This document shows positions 5,457 to 10,758 of a DNA stretch of 62,772 nt, piece after piece. The translations under genes and the position numbers were made by a program. The stretch covers positions 535 to 63,306 of the forward strand of contig DDSA01000080.1 of NCBI GenBank assembly GCA_002343715.1, in the 5' to 3' direction. Within the stretch, counting starts at the first letter, position 1, and the number at the start of each line of letters is the position of its first letter. The DNA is from Phycisphaerales bacterium UBA2402 (GTDB taxonomy: Bacteria > Planctomycetota > Phycisphaerae > Phycisphaerales > UBA1924). The notes beneath the pieces were generated by a model. That model worked only from the letters and a program-made list of their open reading frames with translations, did not search any database and was not told the origin of the DNA.

Positions 5457-5927
5457 TCAGACGTTCTTGCCGAGGATCAACAGCACTCCCATCAAGGCCT
5501 GTGCGAGCGAGTACGCCGATTGGATACCCAGCAAGACGCAGATGGCCATCCATGATCTCAGGCGGTGGCGAAGCCAGATGTTGGGGATCACGCATCCCGC
5601 CAGCCACGCGAGCATCAACAGCAGGATGATTACCTCTTCTGATACGGACCCGAAGAGCGCGAGGATCATGATGGGAAACAAGGTGATGCCCCCGAAGAGC
5701 ATGAACGCTTCGGTTTCCTTGTCGAAGTACGGATGCATGAGCAGGATGCCCAGCAGCGGCCACGGTGCCATGATGATGAGCGATGCCAGGCACATCCCCA
5801 GGGTTCGCAAGGGGGTTCCGACCTTCGATGGACCGGGCCGACCGCTGAATGCGTGGAGTTCCGGATGGGTGGGCGGCGTGACAGTGGGGATGACCGGTTG
5901 TCGGCTTGCAGCATCTGGGGCAGTCAC
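5457..5927 (-). CDS. small multi-pass membrane protein
   Basis: A 156-residue protein. A 40-residue Pro-rich N-terminus is followed by four hydrophobic segments (about 42-62, 72-93, 96-113 and 125-152). The start is GTG at 5927 and overlaps the TGA of the upstream DKNYY-repeat gene by four bases (GTGA), so the two are translationally coupled. I recognise no family. The coupling suggests that it works with the exported repeat protein. Confidence 0.65.
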   Translation of the reverse strand: MTAPDAASRQPVIPTVTPPTHPELHAFSGRPGPSKVGTPLRTLGMCLASLIIMAPWPLLGILLMHPYFDKETEAFMLFGGITLFPIMILALFGSVSEEVIILLLMLAWLAGCVIPNIWLRHRLRSWMAICVLLGIQSAYSLAQALMGVLLILGKNV

Positions 5928-7168
5928 TTGTCACCACCTGGCTGGAGGGACTTGCCCTTCTCACCCGTCCTCGTGGCGGGCTTCCTGCCATCGAGTGCCA
6001 TCGCCTCACTGATCGCATCGGTCATTCTCCGCAGTTTCTCGACTTCATGCGAAGGCTGCGGCTTGCCCTCGAACGTCGGCTGCATCTCGACCTCCGGCTC
6101 TGTCAGTGTTCCGTTCTTCCAGATCGCCGCGACCGTCGCGGCGTGACGGACTGGGCCGACCGCCCCGCCGAACCATACGGGCTTGGTGACAATAAATCCG
6201 TCCGTTGTGGGCGTCAGCGTGTAGACCTCGATGTAGTACGGATCGAAGAGGTACAAACGCGCCGCGTCGCGGAACAGGGCAGAGTCCGCCGCGGCAAGAT
6301 CGGCCACCTTCGTGAACGTGGCAGCGTCGGCGCCCAGAATGGGAAAGGCGCGTGTGCTGACATACGCGCCTTTCTTGTCCGCAAAGACGTGATTGTGGAG
6401 GACGCGGAAACTTCCCGCATCGACGTTCGCCAACCGAATGTCACCGGACCAGACGTGCCGCGCATCGGCGGCGAACGGGATGTCGTTCCCGAATGTTCGG
6501 AACGTTTTGACGTCGGCGTCTTTGAGCCTCGTGCTGCTCCAGTAGACGTGCTTCGCGTCGGCGTAGAACGCCTGATTCAGGTGCCGGAAACTCCTCGGGT
6601 CGGCACCGGCAAGGCGTGTGTATTGGTAGTAGACGGAGCGCTTGTCCTTCCAGACAAACCCCGGATTGACGACCAGCGCTGTGGCCGGATCGGCGCCCTT
6701 GATCGGCACGTCCGTTCGCCACACGTGATTCGCGTCCTTTGCCAGATTGAAGTCCATGACCTCGAACGATGCTGGATCGGCGTCCGGGATCTCGACGATC
6801 CAGAAATGTGCGGCGCTAACCCACTTGTAGTAGATGTTGTTCTTGTCCTTTGCGTACTCCTCGCTCAAGACGACAAAACTCGCGGCGTCTACATCGTCTG
6901 CGAGCTGGAGCGGGCGCTCCATGATCCTCACGAAGTCCCTCAAGGTCGACTTTCCGGCCTGGTCGATCCGTTGCCCATTCAAAAAGATAAAGTTCCCTCG
7001 TCGCGCGTACCCGTGTCCGAGTGATTGTTCTTCCGCGTGCTCGGTTACGGAGGATGTCTCTTGGTACGTCGGTCCTGCTGTGATGTCGGTGTCCTGGAGT
7101 AAAGCGCGTTCGCCCCGGGCGAGGGCGATGTTGAGTAATACGACGCTCAGGATCGACAAAGTCGTCAT
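5924..7168 (-). CDS. exported DKNYY-repeat protein
   Basis: A 414-residue protein with an N-terminal signal-like hydrophobic segment (residues 1-18). It carries at least six copies of the DKNYY motif at about 30-37 residue spacing: DKNNIYY (108), DANHVW (145), DKRSVYY (175), DAKHVYW (204), DARHVW (235) and DKKGAYV (264). Each is preceded by an (A/D)-DPxSF-like segment. DKNYY proteins are widespread, mostly exported and of unknown function. The C-terminal 60 residues are charged and poorly ordered. It is the first gene of a two-gene unit with the membrane protein that overlaps its stop codon. Repeat recognition is firm; the role is unknown. Confidence 0.8.
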   Translation of the reverse strand: MTTLSILSVVLLNIALARGERALLQDTDITAGPTYQETSSVTEHAEEQSLGHGYARRGNFIFLNGQRIDQAGKSTLRDFVRIMERPLQLADDVDAASFVVLSEEYAKDKNNIYYKWVSAAHFWIVEIPDADPASFEVMDFNLAKDANHVWRTDVPIKGADPATALVVNPGFVWKDKRSVYYQYTRLAGADPRSFRHLNQAFYADAKHVYWSSTRLKDADVKTFRTFGNDIPFAADARHVWSGDIRLANVDAGSFRVLHNHVFADKKGAYVSTRAFPILGADAATFTKVADLAAADSALFRDAARLYLFDPYYIEVYTLTPTTDGFIVTKPVWFGGAVGPVRHAATVAAIWKNGTLTEPEVEMQPTFEGKPQPSHEVEKLRRMTDAISEAMALDGRKPATRTGEKGKSLQPGGDK

Positions 7169-7839
7169 GATGGGAACTCGGAATCCGCCTCAAATCGCGG
7201 GAATGCGCGGGTCGTCGCATGTATCGGCCTCGCGTTGATCGCGAACACGTTCGGGAGTTGCGTCATCTTCAGTTTTCGAGTTTGACTAGATTTTCTATCA
7301 AAGGTGTATTCGTAGTCTCGAACAGTCCCGATGCAGAGTGGCCTGACCCTTCATTCAAACTTCACAATCATGAGAAAGGAAGACTCGCATTAACGTGCGT
7401 AGGGCTGCTCCCCCTGATCAATGTTCTGTTGAATCTGCTGGACTTCGGGCGACATCTCGGCCCCGTCAGAAGGAGAAGAACTTGGATATGAACTTTCGGG
7501 ACCGATTCGGCTTGATCGTTCGCCCCGGCGCGGAGCTTGACAACTCGCGAACCCGAGAGGCACTGTGCACCCCCGCCGGACGGCATCTCCACGACGGAAG
7601 AGGTACTGGGCCGACTCTCTCGTGCGAAATGAAAAAGCGCCAAGTCGGACAAACAGGCGAGACGTTACGTACCAACTACACGCAGCACCCCGTCAACCGG
7701 AATGTCTACGGATGCGGGCGATCCGTGAGGGCGGGTTGTAGGAGCGGGCACGGCGGCGTGCGCTCAAGCCGGCCGGCGGCATGGAGGAGCACAGTGGATA
7801 TGGAGTGGCGGGGTGACATCCAATCGGCGTTTGCTAAAT
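7169..7839. other. intergenic region, about 670 bases
   Basis: This lies between the 3' end of the haemoglobin operon and the start of the DKNYY gene. Several short frames are open on both strands, but none has a ribosome site or recognisable protein. The stretch 7300-7400 is more AT-rich and may hold the DKNYY promoter. I see no RNA gene or repeat. Confidence 0.4.
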
Positions 7840-8283
7840 CTACACTGGCCCACTCTCTCGGAGCAGCACGGCACTCATCGAAGCAGCCATGCGTCGCGCC
7901 GGTGTGACAAACGCTTCTTGACCACCCGGCGGCACCACCCGTGCGACGGTCTGTTGCCAGAGTTCGATCCAACGGTTGAAGTGATCTTGCCGTAACCCGG
8001 GGATGCGCTGGTGGGCCTCGAGCGGACGGCCCGCGTATCGACCGGTACGCAGCACCACCGTCGACCAGAAGTCGTACATCTTCGGCAAGTGATGCGACCA
8101 GTCGCCGATGTGCGCGGCGAAGATCGGACCAAGCAAATCGTCCTGGTTCACCGAGTCATAGAACGTGTCGACAAGCCTGCGGATCACATTCTCATCGATC
8201 AAGAGACCGGAATCGGGGTTCCCTCTTGGCTCGGTAAGCGGAAGGGGTCTACCTGCGTCACGGTGTCGCTCGTTCGTCGGCAT
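7840..8283 (-). CDS. group III truncated haemoglobin
   Basis: A 147-residue protein from the ATG at 8283, preceded by a GAGAGAA ribosome site. The frame is open further upstream to 8382, but those residues look non-coding. Family landmarks of class III (P) truncated globins: Phe41-Tyr42 on helix B, LGPIF (51-55), the E-helix DFWSTVVLRTGRY (71-83), PLEAHQ, and the proximal His in DHFNRWIELW (His101). These bind haem and usually O2 or NO; the physiological role is unsettled but is often tied to NO or redox stress. It is the last gene of a unit that starts with the MarR-type regulator; 117 bases separate it from the thioredoxin-like gene. Confidence 0.88.
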   Translation of the reverse strand: MPTNERHRDAGRPLPLTEPRGNPDSGLLIDENVIRRLVDTFYDSVNQDDLLGPIFAAHIGDWSHHLPKMYDFWSTVVLRTGRYAGRPLEAHQRIPGLRQDHFNRWIELWQQTVARVVPPGGQEAFVTPARRMAASMSAVLLRESGPV

Positions 8284-8400
8284 GGTTCTCTCTTGATGTG
8301 AATGCTCGATGAACTGCCCGAACCACGAACCGAACCGGCGCTCCGCGGCGGCACAACTCGACGCCGCGGAGCGCCCTCGCATACACGCACGTGATTGTTA

Positions 8401-8640
8401 TCAGGCCTTCAACACGGCAAGGTCCGCCCCGTGATTGATATGGAATGCCTGGCCGTTGATCACCAGCGCCGGCACCGACTTGACCCCGGCCTTCTCTGCT
8501 TCACTGACACGGGCCTTGTTCTGACCGAGGTGGACGATTTCAACATCGAACTTCGTGCGGTCGAGACCTTCCGCGACCGTGCGTTCCGCGGTGATACAGA
8601 CGGGGCAGCCGGCGTGATAAAACGTGGCTTTCGTGCTCAT
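8401..8640 (-). CDS. small thioredoxin/glutaredoxin-like protein (CPVC)
   Basis: A 79-residue minimal thioredoxin fold. The redox motif is Cys12-Pro-Val-Cys15 after beta-1, the cis-Pro is Pro57 (SVPALVI), and there is no signal peptide, so it is a cytoplasmic disulfide reductase or thiol carrier. The length fits glutaredoxin-like or NrdH-like proteins. A clear AGGAG ribosome site lies 7 bases before the ATG. It sits 9 bases after the MarR-type gene and before the haemoglobin gene, which suggests that it services the regulator's cysteines or the haem protein. The partner reductase is not adjacent; trxB lies at 17.7 kb. Confidence 0.85.
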   Translation of the reverse strand: MSTKATFYHAGCPVCITAERTVAEGLDRTKFDVEIVHLGQNKARVSEAEKAGVKSVPALVINGQAFHINHGADLAVLKA

Positions 8641-8649
8641 GACGTTCTC

Positions 8650-9372
8650 CTACTTGTTGATGTGACTGATCCGACGGGATTTCGGTGGGCTCCGTCGTTG
8701 GCCCGGTCCCTGGTGGTCGAGCGGTTGACCGTTCACGAAGACGCCCCAGAGTCTGGGTCGAACATCATCCGCGGCGGGCTCCATCTCGGCGCAGTCCACG
8801 CGAAGGTCCGAGTCCGCGATCGGGGCATCGATCAGAAGACAGTGGTGCGGTTTCTTCGTGCCCGGGTACTCGTTGGGGCGGAAGTATCTGCATCCGACGC
8901 ACATCCGCGACATCGGGATCGAGCCACACTCCTGCATGGTGCGGATCATGCCGATCAGACCGCGCAGCAACGACGCTCGCTCGTGCTCGGGCAACGCCTC
9001 GACCGCTTGAATCATCGGTGATGGCCACTCACCTGACTTGACGGCCTCCCTCGCACCCTTGTGTGTCAGCGATAAAACGATGGCACGGGCGTCTTCCGCC
9101 GAACGCTTCTTGCTCACCAACCCCTTGCCGATCAGTGCCGAGAGTGCTTCGCTGGCCGTGCCGGGGCTGACCGCCAAGTGCGAGGCAACCTCGGCCAGGC
9201 CGAACGGCTTTGACGCCGATTTCAGCACAGAAAGAATCTGGGACTGCGTAGGGGTCAGACCCCGTTCTCCCGCGGCACGCCAGGACTCGTGCCGCATGAC
9301 CAGCGAGATCTTGGCGAAGCCGGCGAGAATTTTCTCGGTGGTGGTGGGTGGTGGAGGGGGAGCAATATTCAT
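8650..9372 (-). CDS. MarR-family regulator with C-terminal four-cysteine cluster
   Basis: A 240-residue protein. Residues 15-145 form a winged helix-turn-helix of the MarR type (GLTPTQSQILSVL, then HLAVSPGTASEALSALIGKGLV, then a wing with RAIVLSLT). After the dimerisation helix comes an added domain: Cys158-x2-Cys161, Cys178 (next to His176-His177) and Cys194, with a further Cys149. These residues could bind zinc or an iron-sulfur cluster, or could form redox-switch disulfides. The tail (200-240) is basic. It is the first gene of the operon with the CPVC protein and truncated haemoglobin. A perfect palindrome lies immediately upstream, overlapping its promoter, so autoregulation is likely. 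Family assignment is firm; the ligand or sensor chemistry is inferred. Confidence 0.85.
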   Translation of the reverse strand: MNIAPPPPPTTTEKILAGFAKISLVMRHESWRAAGERGLTPTQSQILSVLKSASKPFGLAEVASHLAVSPGTASEALSALIGKGLVSKKRSAEDARAIVLSLTHKGAREAVKSGEWPSPMIQAVEALPEHERASLLRGLIGMIRTMQECGSIPMSRMCVGCRYFRPNEYPGTKKPHHCLLIDAPIADSDLRVDCAEMEPAADDVRPRLWGVFVNGQPLDHQGPGQRRSPPKSRRISHINK

Positions 9373-9373
9373 C

Positions 9374-9410
9374 GGACTCCAAATAATATGGAGTCCAAAA
9401 TAAATGTCAA
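9374..9410 (-). promoter_or_regulatory. promoter with embedded perfect palindromic operator
   Basis: Reading on the minus strand: TTGACA (9405-9410), a 16-base spacer, then TATTAT (9383-9388). A perfect inverted repeat covers 9374-9396: GGACTCCA (9374-9381), AATAATA, TGGAGTCC (9389-9396). It includes the whole -10 element and reaches to within one base of the ATG at 9372. The location is ideal for repression by the MarR-type protein. The GGAG inside the arm also matches a ribosome site 5 bases before the ATG. Confidence 0.7.
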
Positions 9411-9735
9411 CCCTCTGGCATGAAACGATGTGGTCCCCTCAGCGGTCGGTGCGCACCGCGCAGAGCGTAGTTGAAGGCAGTCGTACCGAGCGCGTCGTTC
9501 GTCACGTCTGGCGGTGAATCTGATATCCTTAGAGGCCCGTGTTGTGCCGAAAGGCATCATCCTTGGCCGAGGGTCCAGGTGGTCCGGAGCACTCGACAGT
9601 TGCTGGAATGTCAGGCGCTCCCGATGTCCGGAACATGTGGAAGTGCTCGATTGATCCGCTGTTCGAGTCCCGGGTTTGGCCGCTTGCGTGTTGTTCGAGA
9701 ATGGAGGGCGGTTCAACGCCCTGCTAAACTCACTT
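9411..9735. other. intergenic region between divergent MarR operon and accA
   Basis: No gene seen. It contains a 12-base perfect palindrome CGGTGCGCACCG (9447-9458). The accA reading frame is open upstream to 9676, but that part lacks protein character. The accA promoter should lie here; no clear -35/-10 pair was recognised. Confidence 0.4.
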
Positions 9736-10758
9736 ATGGCCACGTATTACCAACTCGATTTCGAGAAACCCCTTGCCGACATCGAACGAGAGATCGATGG
9801 CTTTGAAGAACAACTCCGCGCGGAGCAATCATCGCCCGACTCGCCGGGAGTTCGGGAGATTGCTGCTCGTATCGAGGAATTGAGGGCCAAACACCAGTCG
9901 GAGCTCGCCCGCCTGTACGGCCAACTCACGGCGTGGCAGACGGTGCGGGTCGCTCGCCACCCCCTGAGACCCCAGACCAGGGATTACATCAACCTGATGT
10001 GCCGCGATTTTACTGAACTGCACGGCGATCGGCGCTTCGGCGATGACCCGGCGATCGTCACCGGCTTTGCCCGCATCGGCAAGTTGAAGGTCATGCTCAT
10101 CGGCCACCAGAAAGGACGCGAGACGAGCGAAAAACTCGCCTGCCACTTCGGTTGCGCCCACCCGGAGGGGTACCGCAAAGCCCTCGCCAAGATGCAACTG
10201 GCCGCCAAGTACCAGGTTCCCATCGTCACGCTCGTCGATACCCCGGGCGCCTATCCCGGGCTTGGTGCCGAGCAACGCGGCCAGGCCGAAGCCATCGCGG
10301 TGAACATGATGGAGATGAGCCGGCTGCGAACACCGATCGTCAGCATCGTGATCGGCGAGGGCGGCTCCGGCGGGGCGCTCGGAATCGCCGTCGCCGATCG
10401 CGTCGCCATGCTCAGCCATTCGTGGTACTCCGTCATCAGTCCGGAGGGCTGCGCGGCGATCCTGTGGAAAGAGGCCAACGAGCAGACCAACTCCGCCGCG
10501 GCCAAGGGCCTGAAACTCACCGCTACGGACAATCTCGAACTTGGCATCGTGGACGACGTGATCACCGAGCCGGTCGGCGGGGCGCACCGCGATCCTCGGA
10601 CAACAGCATCAAACCTGAGCGCCTGGATCGAATCGAGCCTGAGCGAACTCCGACGTGTGGACATCGACACCCTCCTTGCCCAGCGCTACCAGCGTTATCG
10701 TCGGATGGGGGTGTATCTCGAAGCGGCGGAGCAAGATGCCGCGGCGAGCGTGACATAA
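9736..10758 (+). CDS. accA: acetyl-CoA carboxylase carboxyltransferase subunit alpha
   Basis: A 340-residue protein. It transfers CO2 from carboxybiotin on AccB to acetyl-CoA, the first step of fatty acid synthesis, as part of an AccA2-AccD2 complex in the cytoplasm. It shows the standard AccA layout: an N-terminal helical hairpin (YQLDFEKPLADIEREI), then the crotonase-type core with RPQTRDYI, ELHGDRRFGDDPAIV, GHQKGRETSEK, TPGAYPGLGAEQRGQ and GEGGSGGALGIA. Length is slightly above the usual 315-325. The ATG at 9736 starts the conserved MATYYQLDF segment; an upstream in-frame Met at 9676 adds only non-conserved residues. No accD neighbour. Confidence 0.95.
   Translation: MATYYQLDFEKPLADIEREIDGFEEQLRAEQSSPDSPGVREIAARIEELRAKHQSELARLYGQLTAWQTVRVARHPLRPQTRDYINLMCRDFTELHGDRRFGDDPAIVTGFARIGKLKVMLIGHQKGRETSEKLACHFGCAHPEGYRKALAKMQLAAKYQVPIVTLVDTPGAYPGLGAEQRGQAEAIAVNMMEMSRLRTPIVSIVIGEGGSGGALGIAVADRVAMLSHSWYSVISPEGCAAILWKEANEQTNSAAAKGLKLTATDNLELGIVDDVITEPVGGAHRDPRTTASNLSAWIESSLSELRRVDIDTLLAQRYQRYRRMGVYLEAAEQDAAASVT

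Follow-up and report, generated by a model that had tools for sequence, protein, structure and literature searches.

Three genes on the minus strand, running from position 9372 down to 7840 of the window (the whole 62,772-nucleotide stretch analysed here, from contig DDSA01000080.1 of Phycisphaerales bacterium UBA2402), code for a MarR-type regulator with four C-terminal cysteines (MarR-Cys4), a CPVC thioredoxin-like protein and a group III truncated haemoglobin (TrHbIII; Table 1). A sequence-only reading of this DNA had grouped them in one unit, and all three genes lie as it had placed them, with identities that agree with the Pfam and PDB comparisons. The marR and CPVC genes are separated by 9 nt and the CPVC and globin genes by 117 nt, taking the globin to start at ATG 8283; judging from the N-termini of globin relatives, this is most likely the start, rather than the upstream in-frame ATG 8382. 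No terminator-like hairpins were found in the 7700-9760 region. The next recognised gene downstream of the globin gene starts at 7168 and codes for a DKNYY-family protein (5927-7168, minus strand) that is not a member of the operon, and an accA homologue lies on the opposite strand from about position 9676.

Table 1. Genes and predicted control elements at the marR-CPVC-globin locus (window positions)
Feature	Position	Strand	Remarks
Predicted MarR-type winged-helix repressor with C-terminal Cys4 domain, 240 aa	8650..9372	minus	
Cys4 domain, residues 150-203	8764..8925	minus	C158-x2-C161-x16-C178-x15-C194; invariant F164, H176, L190
CPVC thioredoxin/glutaredoxin-like protein, 79 aa	8401..8640	minus	PF13192 above cut-off; PDB 2k8s, E 1.2e-31
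Group III truncated haemoglobin, 147 aa	7840..8283	minus	PF01152 above cut-off; 2ig3, E 1.2e-14
Predicted operator copy 1, centre 9393	9382..9404	minus	Over promoter spacer and -10; matrix score 24.9
Predicted operator copy 2, centre 9377	9366..9388	minus	From -10 to start codon; GGAGTCC core on minus strand
Sigma-70-like promoter TTGACA-N16-TATTAT	9383..9410	minus	11 of 12 consensus bases; implied leader of a few nt only

The regulator scores above the curated Pfam cut-offs for PF12802 and PF01047, which places it in the MarR family, and the Rrf2 Pfam profile was absent among its matches at E <= 0.1. Against the MarR subfamilies of NCBIfam (FabT, AdcR, OhrR, HpaR and others) the best score is 31.6 bits (FabT), with a cut-off of 200, and by these profiles the protein is a MarR member outside every named subfamily in that collection. 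A search of 5.8 billion proteins returned 114 relatives; in the resulting alignment of 115 rows, query included, 114 rows retain C161, C178 and C194 and 113 retain C158, the exceptions being a truncated protein without the domain (P0113) and one with Trp at the first Cys (P0097). The cluster is exactly as the sequence-only reading had described it, and the four cysteines are present in 79 of the best 80 of the 204 loci found in a scan of contigs, the ORF of the remaining locus (L040) being cut by the contig end inside MarR. One of the two search words of that scan includes the first two cysteines, so that the set of 80 is biased towards Cys4 members. Among 80 ORFs (79 from these loci, plus the window) the spacing C-x2-C-x16-C-x15-C occurs in 79, with x17 in one, and a diverged relative, L136, has all four Cys and a middle loop of x13. 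Besides the cysteines, the Phe, His and Leu residues listed in Table 1 are invariant in 62 aligned rows; Cys149, a fifth cysteine of the window regulator, is not conserved. This conservation supports the Cys cluster as a fixed feature of a distinct MarR subtype.

The full-length AF2 model of the regulator, built with no cofactor, has a mean pLDDT of 92.4, Cys4 domain included, and in Foldseek it matched MarR domains over residues 6-151. The nearest PDB sequences, which include the OhrR and ZitR/AdcR types (E 1.6e-4 to 8.6e-4), align with the N-terminal part only; OhrR, AdcR and ZitR share the MarR DNA-binding fold, but their PDB chains of about 145 residues lack the C-terminal Cys4 domain of about 50 residues. 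The sequence of this domain gave chance-level matches only against Pfam and PDB sequences, and the domain modelled alone, a weaker model (pLDDT 74), gave no Foldseek match at E <= 0.001 and one at E 9.5. Comparisons with Pfam, PDB, Foldseek and hhalign found no relation to a known Fe-S family. HiPIP proteins have a similar cysteine spacing, but an origin of the domain from them was rejected, as a two-sequence HiPIP alignment gave an hhalign probability of 3.9, a value exceeded by 2 of 60 column shuffles that left the Cys in place; a single HiPIP sequence gave a weak match to the Cys4 region (probability 20.4). HIPIP matches number 0 in this genome and occur in one of six other genomes.

The globin scores 24.1 bits with Bac_globin (cut-off 21), and its sole PDB match at E <= 0.001 is the group III truncated haemoglobin 2ig3, with which the haem-pocket Tyr, His, His and Trp align at what we take to be positions B10, E7, F8 and G8. 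By these matches the protein is a TrHbIII, the only Bac_globin found in this genome (assembly 87% complete), in which no protoglobin was found. The CPVC protein reaches 32 bits with Thioredoxin_3 (cut-off 24.8) and, at E <= 0.001, matches 2k8s alone among solved structures; it is, by sequence, a Thioredoxin_3 or 2k8s-type thioredoxin and a predicted reductase. The CPVC motif is found in 117 of 120 homologues among the matches listed, and CPVC genes neighbouring the regulator (best 80 of 204 loci, plus the window) have CPVC at the active site in 37 of 38 cases and CAVC in one.

The sequence-only reading had seen a palindrome at 9374-9396. The segment does fall in a conserved predicted operator, but rather than a single palindrome it consists of two adjacent operator copies with centres 16 bp apart. 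The motif shared upstream of relatives is ATAnTTAGGASTCCTAAnTAT, and most relatives have a single copy (64 sites in 61 loci). Both copies in the window overlap the TTGACA-N16-TATTAT promoter, which ends next to the start codon; two promoter-like sites were found in the region, against a mean of 0.6 in shuffles. No exact TWNGGASTCCNWA site other than copy 1 occurs in the 4.29-Mb genome, where the reversed-pattern control gave 4 sites, and copy 2 has one mismatch to TTYGGASTCCRWA. As the exact core occurs once and sites with one mismatch (12/10) are not above the control (10/13), the three-gene unit looks like a one-operon regulon in this genome. Exact sites occur in 15 of 19 other genomes, 49 in total against 64 for the control, and we therefore claim no distal regulon.

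Conservation of the operator was assessed in 79 upstream regions, those of the window and of 78 of the best 80 of 204 loci, L040 and L036 (start not located) being left out. The exact 13-mer core is present in 45 of the 79, compared with 2 sites elsewhere in 809,678 bp; these latter two are located between the MarR and CPVC genes of L073 and L080. With an operator matrix, 73 of the 79 regions score at least 10, and there are 4 hits elsewhere in the same 809,678 bp. The six regions below 10 (L028, L045, L051, L065, L070 and L078) include both Nitrospira TrHbI loci. Because the matrix had been built from 61 of the loci it was scored on, it was cross-validated: trained outside Planctomycetota, it recovered 32 of 34 planctomycetal regions, with 2 hits elsewhere in 361,471 bp, and trained on planctomycetal sites it recovered 41 of the 45 others at threshold 8, 37 at 10 and 35 at 12, with 1 hit elsewhere in 448,207 bp. 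Of the 73 sites, 45 have a TTG[AC]NN-N15-19-TANNNT pair in the interval from -45 to +40 (a count made without a shuffled control), and the median distance from operator to nearest in-frame start is 18 nt. Regulation by MarR-Cys4 through this predicted operator is well supported by its conservation, and the location of the sites inside the core promoter, adjoining the start codon, is that of a repressor and points to autorepression.

Neither of the findings that would have spoken against a functional unit, homologues without the Cys cluster or regulators never seen with globin and CPVC genes, was obtained; instead, the linkage recurs. In the best 80 of 204 loci, a globin of one of three classes lies beside MarR in 34 and a CPVC gene in 37. 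The globins are protoglobin in 20 loci (among them the fusion L056, and L029, where the protoglobin ORF call begins in another frame), TrHbIII in 12 and TrHbI in 3 (divergent in L036), the protoglobin and TrHbI profiles having been grown with MarR and CPVC ORFs excluded. Since 18 of the 20 protoglobin loci in this set have no CPVC gene and 23 of the 37 CPVC loci no globin, the two kinds of protein seem to be targets that stand in for or complement each other; the window locus has both CPVC and TrHbIII. An obligatory role of the CPVC protein in resetting the regulator, an idea put forward in the sequence-only reading, is not supported. Further recurring neighbours are MOSC, redoxin, glutamine-amidotransferase-like (GATase) and cupredoxin proteins and a secreted protein without Pfam match; redoxin occurs beside the regulator in 9 loci and CMD in 2. 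The MOSC, redoxin, CMD, u1 and cupredoxin profiles were checked against Pfam with one member each, and the GATase family was named by eye and from the Nostoc annotation. Of 80 loci in which a MarR ORF is present (the window and members of the best 80 of 204), 76 have at least one of ten neighbour families, by position rules that miss the protoglobins of L056 and L029; the exceptions are L032, L039, L045 and L051. Among the neighbours that were classified, no recurrence of catabolic or efflux genes was noticed.

By record labels, members of the subtype occur in about 12 phyla; some MAG labels look wrong, for example 'Leptolyngbya sp. PLA1', nested in Planctomycetota. In a tree of 79 regulators, the window groups with planctomycetal MarR-CPVC-TrHbIII units in a clade of 11 rows (support 100/97), protoglobin labels lie mostly outside Planctomycetota and no alphaproteobacterial row has a globin label; the deep branches are weak. 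The regulator is carried, at E <= 1e-40, by 16 of 250 Acidobacteriota genomes (the class of G009 and L064), and the 16 loci comprise 11 with protoglobin, 3 with CPVC, 1 with MOSC and 1 with nothing recognised, a weak TrHbI-profile hit in L117 that overlaps the MarR gene itself being taken as an artefact. The operator is present in 15 of these 16 loci, and 15 show all four cysteines, the cluster of L134 being unreadable; three of the genomes also contribute to the best 80 of 204 loci and others may be of the same species. In Planctomycetota the distribution is patchy at the strict threshold used, with 7 of 294 genomes carrying the regulator, the window's included, and none of six other genomes of the window's family. 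The six non-window planctomycetal loci have protoglobin (2, of which L113 looks like the genome of L035), GATase and CPVC (1), u1 (1) or nothing recognised (2), and the operator is present in four and absent in two. As a control, 30 of 58 MarR_2 matches were fetched from seven genomes with a known protoglobin-linked member. All 7 Cys4-MarR loci have protoglobin and operator, whereas the 23 non-Cys4 MarR loci lack, at E <= 1e-10, every one of the ten neighbour families and never score above 3.3 for the operator; since the genomes were picked for carrying the protoglobin link, the control speaks to specificity, not frequency. The regulator system is real, conserved and more general than the window alone reveals.

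In some members the linkage extends to a single polypeptide. P0090 is a 304-aa protein with MarR-Cys4 followed by a CPVC thioredoxin, a natural fusion of two of the operon genes, and MarR-Cys4 and protoglobin share one frame in L056 (5974-7284, 436 aa) and L121 (a 450-aa frame). The latter two frames could represent a fused sensor-effector; L056 and L121 may belong to one species, and a lost stop codon is also possible.

Four fixed cysteines, a site conserved across distant bacteria and frequent globin or redox neighbours suggest that the regulator probably senses reactive nitrogen or oxygen species and induces their removal. More specifically, we tentatively favour an autorepressor whose Cys4 site loses DNA binding upon exposure to NO or related species, freeing expression of the globin and of thiol-redox detoxification. 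A MarR-Cys4 dimer bound to the two operators would cover the -35/-10 spacer, the -10 element and the start of its own promoter, blocking the joint transcription of marR and the CPVC and globin genes. The Cys4 site, most likely with an iron-sulfur cluster, would meet NO, peroxynitrite or other products and be nitrosylated or damaged, so that the dimer is released from the DNA and the operon is expressed. TrHbIII would then oxidise or trap NO, or isomerise peroxynitrite, and the CPVC protein would reduce thiols or nitrosothiols. The targets of this repressor and operator in other phyla would be protoglobin, TrHbI, Tpx, redoxin or MOSC proteins instead. With the same reserve that attaches to this Fe-S/NO explanation as a whole, the operon may be a small self-regulated defence unit.

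The closest precedent is ArnR of Corynebacterium glutamicum, which combines a MarR/ArsR-like winged helix with a C-terminal cysteine sensory domain and represses the globin gene hmp until nitrosylation of its C-terminal [4Fe-4S] cluster by NO ends promoter binding (PMC12343034). A winged-helix repressor with a C-terminal Fe-S site is, on this precedent, feasible for a globin gene. However, ArnR has three conserved Cys (179, 193 and 223), and the window regulator, with four at C-x2-C-x16-C-x15-C, does not show three at the ArnR spacing; moreover, ArnR is described there as almost confined to Actinobacteria, repressing nar and hmp (PMC12343034). NsrR is also reported to be a globin-gene repressor with a C-terminal Cys cluster, the likeness holding only if the Fe-S/NO reading is right; it belongs to the Rrf2 family, a fold family different from that of the window's MarR. 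By analogy, the window regulator may work like ArnR or NsrR. In Campylobacter jejuni, the TrHbIII gene ctb is controlled under nitrosative stress by NssR, described as an activator of the CRP/FNR family, in contrast to the predicted MarR repressor here.

The TrHbIII of C. jejuni is reported to react rapidly with NO (PMC4106858), protoglobin to isomerise peroxynitrite as well as reduce nitrite (PMC4020757), and the peroxiredoxins of Helicobacter pullorum to react with peroxynitrite (PMC5577044). Reactive nitrogen would thus be a signal class that covers both the globin and the thiol-redox partners. In H. pullorum, the reaction of the truncated haemoglobin with NO is far slower than that of the single-domain haemoglobin (PMC5577044), so the principal scavenger of NO may be a protein other than a truncated haemoglobin. 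As a rival signal peroxide stress has to be taken seriously, and the peroxidase-like neighbours (redoxin, Tpx and CMD) found at many loci suit peroxide or thiol stress equally well, which counts against the NO reading. The four cysteines could bind Zn as a Zn(Cys)4 site or form disulfides; their oxidation by peroxides, hypochlorite or disulfide stress would release Zn and open the repressor, with globin, CPVC protein, Tpx and redoxins serving general oxidant defence. We consider this explanation rather unlikely as a whole. It draws on the frequency of CPVC, redoxin and CMD genes (37, 9 and 2 of the best 80 of 204 loci) and on Tpx in Nostoc, on the alphaproteobacterial rows of the tree that lack a globin label, and on the invariant His beside the third Cys, an H-x-C arrangement common in Zn sites; yet by itself it does not explain the recurrence of three globin classes, and a two-Cys thiol switch would need less than the strict four Cys.

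It is improbable that the Cys4 domain is a structural Zn knot, with a small organic or haem-derived ligand in the classical MarR dimer-interface pocket as the signal. Many MarR proteins do respond to small ligands, as is established for the family, and the full-length AF2 model is confident over the Cys4 domain without any cofactor, but the families that were sought and do recur beside the regulator consist of haem and thiol-redox proteins. O2 is a ligand of both TrHbIII and protoglobin and Fe-S regulators can be O2 sensors, so that the regulator might instead follow O2 or redox state and tune the globin level to the O2 supply, not to toxic nitrogen species. This last possibility seems very unlikely, as the peroxidase-like neighbours do not fit it and ArnR is reported to lack a direct O2 response. 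The preferred reading, in which the Cys4 site responds to NO or related species, carries no tie to denitrification of the Cu nitrite reductase type: this enzyme scores above cut-off in 2 of 20 regulator-carrying genomes and not in this one, and a link through it was rejected. This rarity counts against the preferred reading, as do the CPVC loci without a globin, the regions and planctomycetal loci in which the operator scores low or is absent, and the failure of the comparisons above to relate the Cys4 domain to a known Fe-S family.

To our knowledge, many bacteria have single-domain globins of disputed function and no recognised NO-responsive repressor for them. We found no published description of the Cys4-MarR subtype or of its operator in the literature searched, and by a term search MarR is absent from the main texts of two NO-regulation papers (PMC1274295, PMC4601167). 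Possibly, though we hold this somewhat more loosely than the mechanism itself, the regulator represents a class of reactive-nitrogen sensor not described before: a MarR protein with its own small Cys4 domain, probably Fe-S and with no detected relation to catalogued families, acting through one operator over about a dozen phyla, with the globin exchanged (TrHbI, TrHbIII, protoglobin) and fused to a globin or thioredoxin in some lineages. If so, a regulator and operator that travel with protoglobin, TrHbI and TrHbIII would link these globins to one common signal, testable by a simple reporter. The motif and gene set also offer a means of locating units for nitrosative or redox stress, both in Planctomycetota and Acidobacteriota and in further phyla that have been little studied.

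Named plasmids carry the regulator in varied company. On p057_A of Nostoc sp. C057 (L110) it is flanked on one side by tpx, MOSC and a thioredoxin gene and on the opposite side by genes for a globin, a glutamine amidotransferase and a diiron oxygenase; operator sites lie at L110:3937 and L110:3275. It is followed by a CPVC-family protein and a redoxin on pISP2 of Sphingomonas sp. MM-1 and by u1-like and CMD proteins in a plasmid region of Rhizobium sp. SL42; a plasmid region of Paraburkholderia terrae has no u1-like, CMD or comparable neighbour at the regulator. The secreted-looking neighbour, of about 245 aa, is found in 9 loci (L061:6627-7358, also L062, L072, L037 and others); the one member scanned had no Pfam match, and in L115 the gene has its own operator copy. 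A cupredoxin-like gene is divergent from the regulator in L042 (the member checked with Pfam), L043, L052 and L058. The protoglobins L021:6706-7407 and L024:6711-7370 have, by eye, lipoprotein-signal-like N-termini; both belong to planctomycetal units with CPVC, and L024 also has TrHbIII. Finally, a ScdA/RIC-type hemerythrin gene beside the regulator in L016 and a 4Fe-4S dicluster subunit gene nearby in L018 hint at nitrogen-oxide metabolism.
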